Shown here piece after piece: positions 5,212 through 15,773 of a stretch of DNA of 50,477 nucleotides; within the stretch, counting starts at the first letter, position 1, and every line of letters begins with the position of its first letter. A program made the position numbers and the translations under genes. The notes beneath the pieces were generated by a model. It saw only the letters and a list, made by a program, of their open reading frames with translations. It made no database searches and was not told the DNA's origin. The stretch comes from Terriglobia bacterium (lineage in GTDB: Bacteria > Acidobacteriota > Terriglobia > Terriglobales > Acidobacteriaceae): contig JAVUPY010000079.1 in assembly GCA_032252755.1 (NCBI GenBank), forward strand, positions 1 through 50,477, given 5' to 3'.

Positions 5212-5304
5212 AAAAACCACCTCCGGCGGACTTGGTGGCTAATGTCAAACTCCGTGCTTCAAATTGAACTATTCTGAGTGGCTTCGCAAGCCGAAAAGCG
5301 GGAG

Positions 5305-5336
5305 AGCTCTAAAATCGTCTGCTAAGGCCGACCAAT
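5305..5336 (-). repeat. Dispersed 32-nt repeat, copy 2
   Basis: Matches 3101-3132 at 28 of 32 bases. It lies about 70 bases upstream of the S9 peptidase start. On the minus strand it reads W-S-A-L-A-D-D-F-R-A-L followed by a stop after 11 more codons. Confidence 0.7.
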
Positions 5337-5407
5337 TCATCAATTCAGCGCGAGGGTTCAATCCGATTGCCGAGTTCCGAGTAGCTTTGCTATCTTTTTC
5401 GCCCACC

Positions 5408-7585
5408 ATGAAATCGTTAAAAATCTTTTGCCTCTTCGTATTCGCATTCCTGTCGATTGCCTGTTTCGCGCAGCAGAAGTTCAACCTTGAACAGGTGATG
5501 AGCGCGCCTTTCCCTGACAACCTTTCTGTCGCCAAGGACAGCGGGCGCATGGCATGGGTCTTCAACGCCAAGGGAGTGCGCAACGTCTGGATTGCCGACG
5601 CGCCCGATTTCAAGGCGCGGCCGGTCACGCACTATGACGTCGATGGTGTGCCCATCGCCAGTCTCCGGCTCACGCCCGACGGCAAGACCGTCGTGTATGC
5701 CCGCGGCAGTGAGACCAACCACCAGGGTGAGGTCGCAGCCCCGCAGCACTTCACTGTCAAGCCGGAGCAGCAGGTTTGGGCCGTTGATGTCGACGGGAAC
5801 AGCACTCCCCGTCTGCTCGGCTTGATGAACTGCGACGATGAGGGGTGCGAAGACATCCAGATTTCTCCCGATGGCAAGTGGGCCGTCTGGGCGGCGCGCA
5901 AAAACCTTTGGCTGGCGCCGATCGCGGCCGGAGCGAGCGCGCAAACTTCCAATCCCGACGCTGCCGCACAATCAGATAAAGTCGCCGCGAACGGCCCGGC
6001 GAAGCAACTGGCCTACCTTCGCGGCAACAATTACGACCCGCACTGGTCGCCTGATTCGCGGCGAATCGCATTCACCAGTTCGCGCGGCGATCACAGCTTT
6101 ATCGCCATCTATACCCTGGGCAGCGACAAAGTCCAATACATGGCCCCGGCGCCGGACCGCGACCGCTTGGCCCGCTGGTCGCCTGGTGGCAACCGCATCG
6201 CCTACATCAGGTTGCATGGCGCCGAGCAGCGCGTGCCGCTTATTCCGGAGCGCAGCAATCCATGGTCGATCTGGGTCGGCGATCCCGATACCGGCGCGGC
6301 GAAAGAGATCTGGCACAGCAGCACCGATCTGAACGGCAGTCTGCCGGGAATGATCGAGGACGATGCGTTCCATTTCGCAGGCGATCGCATTACCTTCGCC
6401 AGCGAAATGGATGGACGTGGTCACCTCTATTCGATTGCCGTCACTGGTGGTCAGCCGACGCTGCTTACGCCTGGCGATTTCGATGTCGAAGATATCGCCG
6501 AGAGCCAAGATCAAAAAACACTGATCTACACCTCGAACCAGAATGACATCGACCGCCGCCACATATGGCGGGTGCCCATCACCGGCGGCACACCCGAGGC
6601 GGTCACGCGAGGCGAGAAGATCGAGTGGTCGCCGCTACAGATGAGCGATGGCACACTTGTGTTCTTCCAATCCAGCGCGACGCAGGTCGGCATGCCGATG
6701 TATCTCGGCAAGTCGGGTCCGCAAATGATCGCGCGTGAAGCCATCCCCGCAGACTGGCCGGGCTCACAACTGGTCACGCCGCAGCAAGTGATTTTCAAAT
6801 CGACCGACGGCCTTGAAATCCACGGCCAACTCTTCATTCCGCGCGAGAAGAAACAGGGCATGCCAGGAATCATCTTTACGCACGGCGGCTCACGTCGCCA
6901 GATGATGCTCGGCTTCCACAACATGAACTACTATTCGAACGCCTACGCCGAGAACCAGTATCTGTGCTCGCTCGGTTATGTCGTTCTGAGCGTCAACTAC
7001 CGCACCGGCATCATGTACGGACGCGCCTTCCGCGAGGCGCCGCACACGGGCATGCGCGGCGGAATGGAGTACCAGGATGTGCTCGCCGGTGGACGTTACC
7101 TGCAATCTCTGCCCTACGTCGACAAGAATAAGATTGGACTCTGGGGCGGTTCCTACGGCGGATATCTCACGGCCATGGGTTTGTCGCGTAATTCCGACTT
7201 GTTCAAGGCCGGCGTGGACCTTCACGGCGTCCACGACTGGTGGCCTGAAGAGCGCATGTGGAACCCCACCCTTGGCGATAACGCGCCAGACCTCGAGCAG
7301 GCGCAAAAGCTGGCGTGGGAGTCGTCTCCTAATTCCACGATCGACAAGTGGACCAGCCCGGTGCTTCTCATCCAGGGCGATGACGATCGCAACGTGCCTT
7401 TCACGCAGACCGTGGACCTGGCACAACTGTTGCGCGATCATCACATCCCGTTCGAGTACCTGGTCTTTCCCGACGAAATCCACGACTTCCTGAAATGGGG
7501 CAGTTGGATGCACGCCTATTCGGCCGGCGCGGATTTCTTCAATCGCGTGCTGGTAAAGGGCGAGAAGATCGGAGTGCCGAATTAG
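5408..7585 (+). CDS. Secreted prolyl oligopeptidase family (S9) serine peptidase
   Basis: About 725 residues with signal peptide (MKSLKIFCLFVFAFLSIACFAQ). Residues ~30-440 contain WD40/TolB-like beta-propeller repeats (SPDGKWAVWAA, WSPDSRRIAFTSSRGD, WSPGGNRIAYIR), and the C-terminal third is an alpha/beta-hydrolase domain. The catalytic triad is visible: Ser582 in GGSYGG, Asp660 in GDDDRNVP, His692 in DEIHDF. The architecture is that of dipeptidyl aminopeptidases/acylaminoacyl peptidases, here acting in the periplasm on short peptides. ATG 5408 is chosen because the signal peptide starts there; the frame runs 48 codons further upstream through the repeat element, without a ribosome binding site. 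A hairpin terminator follows at 7641. Confidence 0.92.
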   Translation: MKSLKIFCLFVFAFLSIACFAQQKFNLEQVMSAPFPDNLSVAKDSGRMAWVFNAKGVRNVWIADAPDFKARPVTHYDVDGVPIASLRLTPDGKTVVYARGSETNHQGEVAAPQHFTVKPEQQVWAVDVDGNSTPRLLGLMNCDDEGCEDIQISPDGKWAVWAARKNLWLAPIAAGASAQTSNPDAAAQSDKVAANGPAKQLAYLRGNNYDPHWSPDSRRIAFTSSRGDHSFIAIYTLGSDKVQYMAPAPDRDRLARWSPGGNRIAYIRLHGAEQRVPLIPERSNPWSIWVGDPDTGAAKEIWHSSTDLNGSLPGMIEDDAFHFAGDRITFASEMDGRGHLYSIAVTGGQPTLLTPGDFDVEDIAESQDQKTLIYTSNQNDIDRRHIWRVPITGGTPEAVTRGEKIEWSPLQMSDGTLVFFQSSATQVGMPMYLGKSGPQMIAREAIPADWPGSQLVTPQQVIFKSTDGLEIHGQLFIPREKKQGMPGIIFTHGGSRRQMMLGFHNMNYYSNAYAENQYLCSLGYVVLSVNYRTGIMYGRAFREAPHTGMRGGMEYQDVLAGGRYLQSLPYVDKNKIGLWGGSYGGYLTAMGLSRNSDLFKAGVDLHGVHDWWPEERMWNPTLGDNAPDLEQAQKLAWESSPNSTIDKWTSPVLLIQGDDDRNVPFTQTVDLAQLLRDHHIPFEYLVFPDEIHDFLKWGSWMHAYSAGADFFNRVLVKGEKIGVPN

Positions 7586-7667: not shown

Positions 7668-7792
7668 ACAGACCACCAAGCTCTCCTTAGCCACAAACGC
7701 ACGTGAGCTATGTCACTTACAGTCATTTGACCGTTCCGCAAGAATGCTGGCTCACAACCAGGTACTGACAACTATAGAAGTGAGGCGGACCA

Positions 7793-8509
7793 ATGACTCA
7801 AGACAAGAAGAAAGTAGTCGGGTGCATTGCACCGGCCGCGGGCCCGCTGATTCCGAAGCCAGCGGAGAACGCGGGGCAAGCAACCAGCACTGGAGAGGAG
7901 AAGAAGATGAGTGTTACAGTTGGAAAGCAGGCGCCCGATTTCGAGGCAGCGGCCTTTCACAAGGGCGAGTTCAAGAACGTAAAGCTGTCTGACTATCACG
8001 GAAAGTGGATACTCCTCTGCTTCTATCCAGGCGATTTCACCTTTGTTTGACCGACCGAACTGTCTGCGGTCGCAGACAAGGCTGGTGACTTCAGGAAGTT
8101 GGGCGTGCAAGTGCTCGCATGCAGCACGGACAGCCGCTTCGTACACAAAATCTGGCAGGAAGAAGAACTCTGCAAGATGATCGACGGGGGCTTCCCGTTC
8201 CCGATGCTCTCCGACGCTGGTGGCAAAATTGGATCCGTCTATGGTGTTTTCGATGAGGCTGGCGGAGTCGATGTTCGTGGCCGCTTCCTTATCGACCCGG
8301 ATGGCGTGATCCAGGCGATTGAATTTCTCACCCCTCCAGTCGGCCGCAAAGTTGCCGAAGCGATTCGACAAATCCAGGCTTTCCAGCTTGTACGCAAGAC
8401 CCAAGGTGCTGAGGCCTGTCCGGCAGGCTGGGAGCCCGGAAAGCCGACGCTCAAAGTTGGCCCCGAACTGGTGGGCAAGGTCTGGGAAGTTTGGAAGCCG
8501 AACGAATAG
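7793..8509 (+). CDS. Selenocysteine-containing peroxiredoxin (AhpC/Prx1 type), in-frame TGA at 8048-8050
   Basis: Thiol (here selenol) peroxidase that reduces H2O2 and organic hydroperoxides. TGA is the only in-frame stop and falls exactly at the peroxidatic cysteine: the protein reads YPGDFTFV-[TGA]-PTEL, the Prx1 motif with Sec for Cys (residue 86). Translation continues without a break through [17 protein letters not shown] and a C-terminal resolving Cys in [14 protein letters not shown], so both halves are intact and conserved. A SECIS-like hairpin starts 10 nt downstream of the TGA. Total 238 residues from ATG 7793 (TGAGGCGG upstream). A second in-frame ATG at 7907 has a stronger GGAGAGGAG and would give a canonical 200-residue Prx with Sec48; the 38-residue extension ([10 protein letters not shown]...) has no signal peptide. 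A nonsense mutation is the alternative, made unlikely by codon position and hairpin. No selABCD genes are in the window. Confidence 0.88.
8051..8078 (+). promoter_or_regulatory. Bacterial SECIS element of the selenoperoxiredoxin mRNA
   Basis: Directly after the TGA, a 10-nt spacer is followed by a perfect 7-bp stem (8061-8067 TGTCTGC with 8072-8078 GCAGACA) closed by the tetraloop GGTC (8068-8071). The apical loop begins 17 nt after the TGA. A G and U in a short apical loop, at about this distance, is the hallmark recognised by SelB; the E. coli fdhF SECIS also presents GGUC at its tip. The hairpin lies within coding sequence (ELSAVADK), as bacterial SECIS elements do. Confidence 0.82.
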
Positions 8510-10017: not shown

Positions 10018-10884
10018 TCACTGGGATCGCCTGGCCTGCTGTTGCTTCTTTAACTCTTCCTCGAACTCGCGCTGCGATCGCTCGACATAGGCTTGGAATT
10101 CGCCGGGAACGATAAACGGATTCTGTTTCGGGTGAACCGCGAGCGCATCACGTTTCTGCGTCAGGTGGAAGAAGGAACCATGCGACGCAAGGAATACATC
10201 GGCGGGAAGAGTTCTCAAGTAAGCGAACGTGTGTCGGTAGTCCCGGACAATGTTTGGATAGTTCGGGTTGTTGACAAGCTTGTAGCCGGGCACACTCGTA
10301 CTGCAGAGGAATACCACGTTGTACCGGCGACCGTTTTCCTCGGCTTCGGTAGTCCAGGTGGTGCAGCCCTTCGTGTGTCCGGGTGTGAGGTGCGCGATCA
10401 TGGTTACGCTGCCTGTTGAGACGCTCTCGCCGTCTCCGATGATCCTGTCGGGTTGTAGTGGCGGAAACGTCAGCTTGTCGCCCCATGCAAAATCGCCCCG
10501 TTCCCCGCGAGCGATCAGTGCACCATCTTCTCGGCTCGCGACGAACTGTGCTCCAGTCCATTGCTTCAGTTGCGCAAGTCCGGCGGCGTGATCGAAATGC
10601 GCGTGGCTATTGATCAGGTATTTCACATCACCGAGCCTGAATCCGAGTTTACGGATGTTGTCGCGAATCATAGGTGCGGTTTCCGGGAAGCCCCCGTCCA
10701 GCAGCATGTGGCCTTGAGGGCTAGTGATCAGGAATGATGTTACGTCGCTGGCTCCAACGTAATAGATGTTCCCAATGATTCGAAACGGTTCGACCGGTTG
10801 ATTCCACGAGCGCCACTCCGGATTCGATTGGCCGAACATGGAGATGGACAACAGAAGCGTGACCACGCAGAGGACGGACTTCAT
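10018..10884 (-). CDS. Subclass B3 metallo-beta-lactamase
   Basis: Periplasmic zinc hydrolase of 288 residues with signal peptide (MKSVLCVVTLLLSISMFGQ). All B3-type metal ligands are present: His94, His96 and His170 for Zn1 (SHAHFDH; TPGHTKG) and Asp98, His99 and His235 for Zn2 (LASHGSFF). The position equivalent to the B1/B2 Cys ligand reads SVPGY, as in B3 enzymes such as L1. Family knowledge predicts hydrolysis of penicillins, cephalosporins and carbapenems; the actual spectrum is unknown. The gene is solitary without mobile-element signs, fitting an intrinsic environmental enzyme. The C-terminus has a charged tail rich in Glu/Lys/Gln. Confidence 0.9.
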   Translation of the reverse strand: MKSVLCVVTLLLSISMFGQSNPEWRSWNQPVEPFRIIGNIYYVGASDVTSFLITSPQGHMLLDGGFPETAPMIRDNIRKLGFRLGDVKYLINSHAHFDHAAGLAQLKQWTGAQFVASREDGALIARGERGDFAWGDKLTFPPLQPDRIIGDGESVSTGSVTMIAHLTPGHTKGCTTWTTEAEENGRRYNVVFLCSTSVPGYKLVNNPNYPNIVRDYRHTFAYLRTLPADVFLASHGSFFHLTQKRDALAVHPKQNPFIVPGEFQAYVERSQREFEEELKKQQQARRSQ

Positions 10885-14717: not shown

Positions 14718-15773
14718 GTGAAGGCCATCAAGAAGGCCAGGAAATGTATCGATATCGTCATTTTTCGATTCGATCACGACGCCATCGAACGCGCGCTCGT
14801 CGATGCCGTCGAGCGCGGAGTCGCCGTCCGCGCCTTAATCGCGTTCACGAATCGTGGCGGCGAAAAGAACCTGCGCAAACTCGAAACTCACTTCCTCGCC
14901 AAGGGCATTACGGTTGCGCGTACCGCCGGCGATCTCATCCGCTATCACGGCAAGATGATGATTGTCGATCGCCACGACCTCTACCTGCTGGCGTTTAACT
15001 TCACCCATCTCGATATCGACCACAGTCGCAGCTTCGGCCTCGTCACGCGCAACCGTAAACTCGTCCAGCAGGCCATTAATCTCTTCGAAGCCGACTCTCA
15101 ACGCCAGTCTTACGAGGCCGGCAGCCCGAAATTCCTGGTCAGCCCCTTGAACGCCCGCAAGGAACTCGCGGCATTCATCAAAGGCGCAAAGAAGCAGTTG
15201 CTCATTTACGACCCTAAAATCGGCGACCGCTCCATGATCGGGCTTTTGCGGCAGCGCCTCGAAGCCGGAGTCGAGGTTTGCGTCATCGGAAGCTCAAGCG
15301 CACGCGGCATCAACGTTCGCCAGTTGGGACGCATGCGCCTGCACGCGCGCGTCATCATCCGCGACCGCAAGGACGCTTTTCTCGGCAGCCAAAGCCTGCG
15401 CACCCAGGAACTCGATGCCCGCCGTGAAATCGGACTCATCTTCCGCGACGCCAAGATTGTCAAAACCCTGCGCCGCGAATTTCGTGAAGACTGGAAAGCC
15501 TCTGAAGGGCTCGAATCGCAAGAACAGGAAGCCAGGAAACTCCCGGTCGAGAAAGCTGCCAAGAAGGTTGCGAAAGCAGTCGCGGAAAACCTCGCCGTGG
15601 ATCCGGTCGTGAAAAAAGTTGTAAAAGCGATTAAAAAGAACGGAGCCGGTCGAGTGCCGGCGAAGCAGATCGAAACCAAGGTAAAGGCCGCGGTCAGAGA
15701 TGTCGTGGGCAAAAAAGTAGAGGAAGCGACTGCAGAAACCGTCCGCGAACTCGCGGATGAAGTCGCGAGCTAA
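14718..15773 (+). CDS. Phospholipase D family protein with Lys/Ala-rich tail
   Basis: 351 residues from GTG 14718. Two HKD-like motifs: HGKMMIVD (full HxKx4D) in the first half and HARVIIRD (Lys replaced by Arg) in the second, each with the usual following strand. The family includes cardiolipin synthases, phosphatidyltransferases and nucleases; which applies is not clear. The last ~90 residues form a Lys/Ala/Val-rich helical tail (EKAAKKVAKAVAENLAV, KKVVKAIKKNGAG) like histone-H1/KU tails, so nucleic-acid or membrane surface binding is possible. The same frame upstream of GTG (14676-14717) encodes LRLFIQPGDGVDPLV, which looks like domain sequence and follows GAGGAG at 14664, so the true start may be a non-standard codon such as CTG 14676. 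Confidence 0.8.
   Translation: MKAIKKARKCIDIVIFRFDHDAIERALVDAVERGVAVRALIAFTNRGGEKNLRKLETHFLAKGITVARTAGDLIRYHGKMMIVDRHDLYLLAFNFTHLDIDHSRSFGLVTRNRKLVQQAINLFEADSQRQSYEAGSPKFLVSPLNARKELAAFIKGAKKQLLIYDPKIGDRSMIGLLRQRLEAGVEVCVIGSSSARGINVRQLGRMRLHARVIIRDRKDAFLGSQSLRTQELDARREIGLIFRDAKIVKTLRREFREDWKASEGLESQEQEARKLPVEKAAKKVAKAVAENLAVDPVVKKVVKAIKKNGAGRVPAKQIETKVKAAVRDVVGKKVEEATAETVRELADEVAS

Follow-up and report, generated by a model that had tools for sequence, protein, structure and literature searches.

A PrxU-family peroxiredoxin gene from a Terriglobia bacterium with an in-frame TGA that very probably encodes the peroxidatic selenocysteine

The window analyzed here, a stretch of 50,477 nucleotides of contig JAVUPY010000079.1, belongs to the genome of a Terriglobia bacterium (GCA_032252755.1; 5.39 Mb in 96 contigs, 99.98% complete, 3.03% contamination) and carries a peroxiredoxin gene with a TGA codon at its active site. 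The features of the locus, all on the forward strand, are:

5264..7585, + strand: upstream neighbor, S9-type peptidase gene (from a scan; related genes occur in genomes of the same family)
7783..7789, + strand: AGGCGGA, a possible ribosome-binding site, picked out by eye
7793..8509, + strand: prxU, putative selenocysteine (Sec)-containing peroxiredoxin of 238 residues (frame, NCBIfam and Pfam matches)
7823..7825, + strand: codon for Cys11, in an N-terminal arm with the family motif GCxxPxxGP (PrxU alignment)
8018..8020, + strand: codon for Cys76, which is almost invariant in PrxU and lies in the strand that precedes the active-site loop (PrxU alignment)
8048..8050, + strand: TGA codon for the predicted Sec86, the peroxidatic residue, in P79-xxx-T83-xx-U86 (frame and codons of homologs)
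8061..8078, + strand: bacterial SECIS-type hairpin, stem 8061-8067 with 8072-8078, loop GGTC at 8068-8071
8417..8419, + strand: codon for Cys209, at the classical 2-Cys resolving position (ACPAGW), variable in PrxU (PrxU alignment)

The frame at 7793-8509 runs for 238 codons from an ATG to a TAG, and its sole internal stop is the TGA at 8048-8050, in the context FTFV-TGA-PTEL. The original prediction had placed this TGA at the peroxidatic position of a peroxiredoxin, with unbroken coding on either side, and both points were confirmed: the Pfam AhpC-TSA domain matches residues 43-175 (130.1 bits), spanning the TGA, and 1-cysPrx_C matches residues 196-231 (32.1 bits), with no other stop in the frame. 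NCBI already has a model for prxU, and this model (NF040737) matched the protein with 383.9 bits against a cut-off of 270, residues 9-237 aligning to positions 2-232 of the 233 in the profile; because the match begins at residue 9, a start at 7793 is favored over the in-frame ATG at 7907. The AhpC equivalog model TIGR03137 scored 185.3 bits, below its cut-off of 272. The motif PxxxTxxU, given for Sec-peroxiredoxins in a passage of PMC13188914, is present as P79, T83 and the TGA at codon 86. When a tree was built, 25 PrxU rows chosen from 107 fell on one side of a branch, apart from the Cys-containing AhpC proteins, with support of 100/99. The window gene is thus a member of the already known selenoprotein family PrxU, in a phylum already known for Sec use.

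We compared the peroxidatic codon across homologs. In a sample of 396 genomes from the phylum, 27 (the window's included) had a match over the PrxU cut-off of 270 bits, and all of these matches contained an internal TGA, as the single internal stop in 25, together with a TAG in one and as two TGA codons in one. At the peroxidatic codon itself, TGA was found in 27 of the 27 loci, the window being one of them. Named genomes had at least 573 stretches encoding a relative, and in the best 80 of these the codon was TGA without exception. Two of the named proteins (L102, recorded as Acidobacteriota, and L073, recorded as Acidobacteria) are identical to those of loci from the phylum sample, so the 106 loci other than the window are not fully independent. 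These two records also identify the phylum of the window as Acidobacteriota. Three fetched relatives scoring below the PrxU cut-off have TGC; the Cys expected from an alignment of homologs was therefore found in those relatives, whereas the close homologs keep TGA. Over the 152 codons 3' of the TGA, the window gene differs from L047, L051 and L065 at 85, 93 and 84 third positions and at 10, 7 and 12 second positions, respectively, and this excess of third-position changes suggests that the region is under protein-level selection. SelA was matched (E 1e-78 or better) in 24 of the 27 PrxU-bearing genomes; the same profile search gave no match in G104, G212 and G276, all of them drafts, which counts against a Sec reading.

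Bacterial SECIS elements are hairpins located shortly 3' of the UGA, and their loop has a G near its start. The hairpin at 8061-8078 fits these features, with a stem soon after the TGA and a G early in the loop GGTC. Its conservation was measured in an ungapped alignment anchored on the TGA, which held 104 distinct sequences from 107 loci, the window included. The 7-bp stem of the window was paired in 94.8% of cells and complete in 67 of the 104 sequences; as a point against it, 5.2% of cells were unpaired and 37 sequences broke at least one of the seven pairs. In 500 control shuffles, in which codons were exchanged among sequences with the same amino acid and relatedness was left unaccounted for, pairing averaged 86.4% (sd 0.5, max 88.0%) and full stems numbered at most 41. 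Eight stems slid along the alignment were worse (best 79.1% paired, 13 full), and both sides of the window's stem covary, one pair for example occurring as GC, TA, AT and CG. Two extra pairs outside the stem were not conserved (17.8%), and the loop was GGTC in 55 sequences, AGTT in 48 and GGTT in one. A single-sequence fold of the 51 bases from the TGA onward was little better than shuffles (z -1.22), again a point against, and an Rfam search at the site returned no matching family. The single fold is uninformative, and the signal for the hairpin comes from the many homologs only.

The original prediction held that the host decodes UGA as Sec and named selA, selB, selD and tRNA-Sec as genes to seek in the same genome. 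All four were found over their cut-offs: profile searches recovered SelA (563.2 bits, cut-off 268), SelB (380.9 bits, cut-off 242) and SelD (374.7 bits, cut-off 125), and the tRNA-Sec scored 65.8 against a gathering score of 47 and was called tRNA-SeC, anticodon TCA, by ARAGORN. The family RF01852 had 16 matches in the genome, two of them over the gathering score, the second of which (47.6) is a tRNA-Ser according to ARAGORN. An internal TGA was present in four of the 12 AhpC-TSA matches of the genome, namely the window gene, a PrxQ/Bcp-like gene (TPGU) and two others with TPTU and WUPNC; selD has an in-frame TGA at its GU site; and two of the nine PF00384 matches, formate-dehydrogenase-like by our reading of the sequence, have TGA within ARVUH and ARIUH. 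Besides the window gene, the genome (G000) thus has six genes with TGA at a redox site (loci L001, L004, L008, L021, L189 and L190), which together with the sel genes upholds the claim about the host. In at least seven genes of the organism, UGA seems to be decoded as Sec, and gene-calling software that has no Sec models would overlook or fragment these genes.

This capacity extends beyond the one genome. TGA-bearing AhpC-TSA matches were listed for seven of eight same-family genomes with a strong SelA (at least 26 matches, with a TGA somewhere inside each) and for none of four same-family genomes without SelA over the cut-off, among the matches listed. G394 has a strong SelA, yet no TGA-bearing AhpC-TSA among the matches listed, which is a point against this pattern; G084, also with a strong SelA, has one weak match of this kind among those listed. 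In the phylum as a whole, 250 of 396 genomes have SelA over the cut-off, so Sec use is common there, in agreement with a passage of a 2006 survey that counts three families and four selenoproteins in Acidobacteria (PMC1794560). A passage of a further paper gives three known selenoprotein genes for one Acidobacteriota strain (PMC12013277).

Taken together, the conserved TGA, the covarying hairpin and the Sec machinery genes support the original prediction of a likely selenoprotein. From the sequences, we hold it almost certain that the window gene is prxU, encoding a Sec-containing AhpC/Prx1-type peroxiredoxin in which the UGA at 8048-8050 is read as Sec86. An apparently broken gene is, in other words, very probably a working selenoenzyme gene. 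By analogy with known families, SelA would use selenophosphate from SelD to form Sec-tRNA-Sec, and SelB, bound to the hairpin 3' of the UGA, would deliver it to the ribosome for insertion of Sec86. Sec86 would then attack peroxide and become a selenenic acid, with which a protein Cys (Cys209, Cys11 and Cys76 being the candidates in the window protein) would form a selenylsulfide, to be reduced by thioredoxin or a similar donor. Sec insertion, as well as a peroxidase activity with thioredoxin as its donor, is predicted here from those known families.

A single base change (TGC or TGT to TGA) would suffice for a nonsense mutation or a sequencing error to break the gene of a Cys peroxiredoxin, and another AhpC-type gene of this genome, L002, does have Cys at the peroxidatic position. 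Such an accident is nevertheless extremely improbable given that 106 other loci have the TGA at the identical position, that the region 3' of it looks protein-selected and that the stem has been preserved by changes on both of its sides. We likewise consider it very improbable that the TGA acts as a real stop and yields an 85-residue product: such a product would lack the catalytic residue and most of the fold, the downstream part looks selected as protein and the genome has Sec machinery, although TGA is an ordinary stop in translation table 11 and, by our own reading, seems to end the selD frame. An assignment of the gene to DNA foreign to the genome bin, in which case the gene would be real and the claim about the organism would fail, bears on the lineage of the window and is taken up with it.

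The window PrxU is an outlier within its own taxonomic family, since a prxU match over the cut-off was found in one of 250 same-family genomes sampled, the window's own; a strong SelA was found in nine of 44. In a tree of 109 rows it grouped, with support of 100/99, with four same-phylum sequences, drawn from two families other than its own, and with one metagenome-assembled genome (MAG) recorded as 'Deltaproteobacteria', and this MAG was the closest named record among the matches listed (75%). At third codon positions prxU has a G+C of 0.644, lower than that of three neighbors (0.668-0.738). These features fit a transfer of prxU into this lineage or its loss elsewhere. The rarity of prxU in the family, the MAG match, the lower third-position G+C (which is equally compatible with transfer of the gene into a native contig) and a bin contamination of 3.03% could also be read as signs of a foreign contig. 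Against this, the upstream S9-type peptidase gene has matches of 56-69% identity over at least half its length in 12 of 59 other same-family genomes, a relationship that makes a foreign origin of the contig unlikely; the G+C of the window, 0.581, lies within the 0.562-0.615 of six stretches from other contigs; the group of the window PrxU contains the four same-phylum sequences besides the MAG; and Sec genes lie on several other contigs of the genome. We therefore give a foreign contig a small chance. The short flanks of three same-family loci with the peptidase gene (L146-L148) were searched for prxU, which was absent from them.

Neighboring genes were surveyed within 2.5 kb of 80 named homologs (the best 80 of at least 573), some of these flanks ending at contig ends. 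By sequence reading, the most frequent neighbors were the rubrerythrin-like (10 loci), flavodiiron-like (9), CoA-disulfide-reductase-like (8), ABC ATPase (8), Fur/PerR-like (7), desulfoferrodoxin-like (6) and KatG-like (4) groups, and 29 of the 80 loci had at least one of six redox groups within this distance. The PrxU neighbors point to oxygen and peroxide defense. In two scans of ten window genes each, no gene of the oxygen- or peroxide-stress kinds was found among the genes scanned. Elsewhere in the window lie a gene for an Rhs-repeat protein with an Rhs core domain (20-2242, +), a subclass B3 metallo-beta-lactamase-like gene (10018-10884, -; NF033105, 339 bits, cut-off 240) and a phospholipase-D-like gene (14718-15773, +) that weakly matches DISARM DrmC (46 bits, cut-off 133).

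The C-terminal CPxxW-motif Cys of typical 2-Cys peroxiredoxins is present in the window protein as Cys209. The C-terminal resolving Cys of the original prediction thus exists, but it is not conserved in the family: in an alignment of 107 PrxU rows, one of them the window's (L052 being all gap at the three positions considered), the residue at 209 in the 106 informative rows is most often Thr (75), followed by Cys (18), Met (8), Ala (4) and Ile (1). Cys76 is found in 105 of the same number of informative rows, the remaining one having Tyr, and position 11 is Cys in all 101 rows aligned there, with a gap in six. Within those 101 rows the arm motif is kept as G10 in 81, C11 in 101, P14 in 87, G17 in 82 and P18 in 74. 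Four of the six rows without Cys11 lack the arm; three of these four have Cys209, two of the three being sisters. Of the other two rows, L090 is truncated where its contig ends and L052 has an unaligned start. Sixty-six PrxU rows have only two Cys besides the Sec, and the rows with more include mis-extended frames. All six rows of the window's clade have Cys209; the window PrxU has in addition Cys110 and Cys127, which are not family-conserved. With Thr or another non-Cys residue at 209, the classical resolving Cys is unavailable to most of the aligned PrxU proteins, while the window's clade could still use it.

As a tentative proposal from these alignments, to which we give less than an even chance, the resolving step in PrxU may have moved to Cys11 or Cys76, most likely with Cys11 of the arm attacking the selenenic acid. 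Alternatively, PrxU may run a 1-Cys-type (here 1-Sec) cycle in which a thiol from outside the protein is the direct reductant. An AlphaFold2 model of the window PrxU had a mean pLDDT of 80.9, and residues 11-20 reached a mean of 75 between two flanking blocks below 50, a pattern that hints at a docked arm. The family comparison turns the question of how the Sec cycle is completed into one of three candidate residues, Cys11, Cys76 and Cys209. If the resolving step did move, the window's clade, with the old and new partners together, would represent an intermediate stage of that change.

A second group of Sec-type proteins was found below the PrxU cut-off. At least 15 such matches with an internal TGA were listed in the phylum sample, and in the 12 examined the peroxidatic codon was TGA in eight and TGC in three, the motif being absent from view in L195. 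The eight (L192-L194 and L196-L200, from the same phylum) read FTFV-TGA-ATEFAALAEQ, followed by a hairpin, and form one clade (100/100) apart from the 25 chosen PrxU rows. Cys rows fall between this clade and PrxU with moderate support (92/80 and 91/78) and a long-branch warning. All eight members keep the C-terminal Cys, in CPSKW, and have Phe at the position of PrxU Cys76; the GCxxPxxGP arm was sought in the eight and found in none, and in L193 and L197 a Cys adjoins a possible start. The two members scanned fell below every NCBIfam cut-off. Read by eye, 11 relatives with a Cys active site (L002, L062-L064, L150-L153 and L201-L203) all have the C-terminal Cys, and in L149 the active-site motif was not found. 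L063, on a long branch, has Cys residues at the Cys76 position, close to its N-terminus and at the C-terminal site, and is possibly a Cys-only cousin of PrxU. The second clade is a natural comparison for the resolution question: if the proposed move in PrxU is real, a Sec-AhpC clade retaining the classical Cys would show that Sec alone does not force the switch.

That Sec can occupy the peroxidatic position in some bacteria, as the original prediction stated, agrees with the NCBIfam PrxU model and with published Sec-peroxiredoxins. In an open-access literature search, the papers that combine peroxiredoxin and selenocysteine with a resolving cysteine and an N-terminal extension did not look relevant by title, the 2001 founding paper lying outside the scope of the search. 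In passages of several papers the Sec-peroxiredoxin counts as an established family (PMC13188914, PMC9312934, PMC8533274, PMC1088965, PMC1794560), and the family entry in those passages is broad, PF00578 or COG1225 with TxxU, and wider than the PrxU subfamily. The founding PrxU is the Sec-peroxiredoxin of Eubacterium acidaminophilum (Sohling et al., 2001, as cited in passages of PMC8533274, PMC13188914 and PMC9312934). In the window protein, as in the founding protein and in NF040737, the peroxidatic residue of the TxxU motif is specified by a Sec codon, and the match covers the profile nearly end to end; the organisms differ, and the likeness is one by family profile. The E. acidaminophilum protein is reportedly the shorter of the two and might have no N-terminal arm.

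Passages of two further papers describe a Sec-peroxiredoxin in Desulfococcus multivorans (PMC5109826) and a PrxU of Sulfobacillus thermotolerans that was upregulated in ore-grown cells under oxidative stress (PMC7409299); these proteins, from other phyla, are of the same kind by name. With AhpC and the 2-Cys Prx1 proteins (TIGR03137; solved structures include 1qmv and 3tkp) the window PrxU shares the fold and the active-site loop, and the 50 rows shown by Foldseek had TM scores of 0.63-0.73 by query and 0.81-0.91 by target at 36-48% identity. The C-terminal Cys is likewise common to these proteins and the window member, whereas the window PrxU has the predicted Sec in place of Cys and the extra conserved Cys11 and Cys76. 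The second Sec-AhpC clade shares with PrxU the TGA at the same codon and the hairpin, but differs from it in forming a clade of its own, with the C-terminal Cys, Phe at 76 and no arm.
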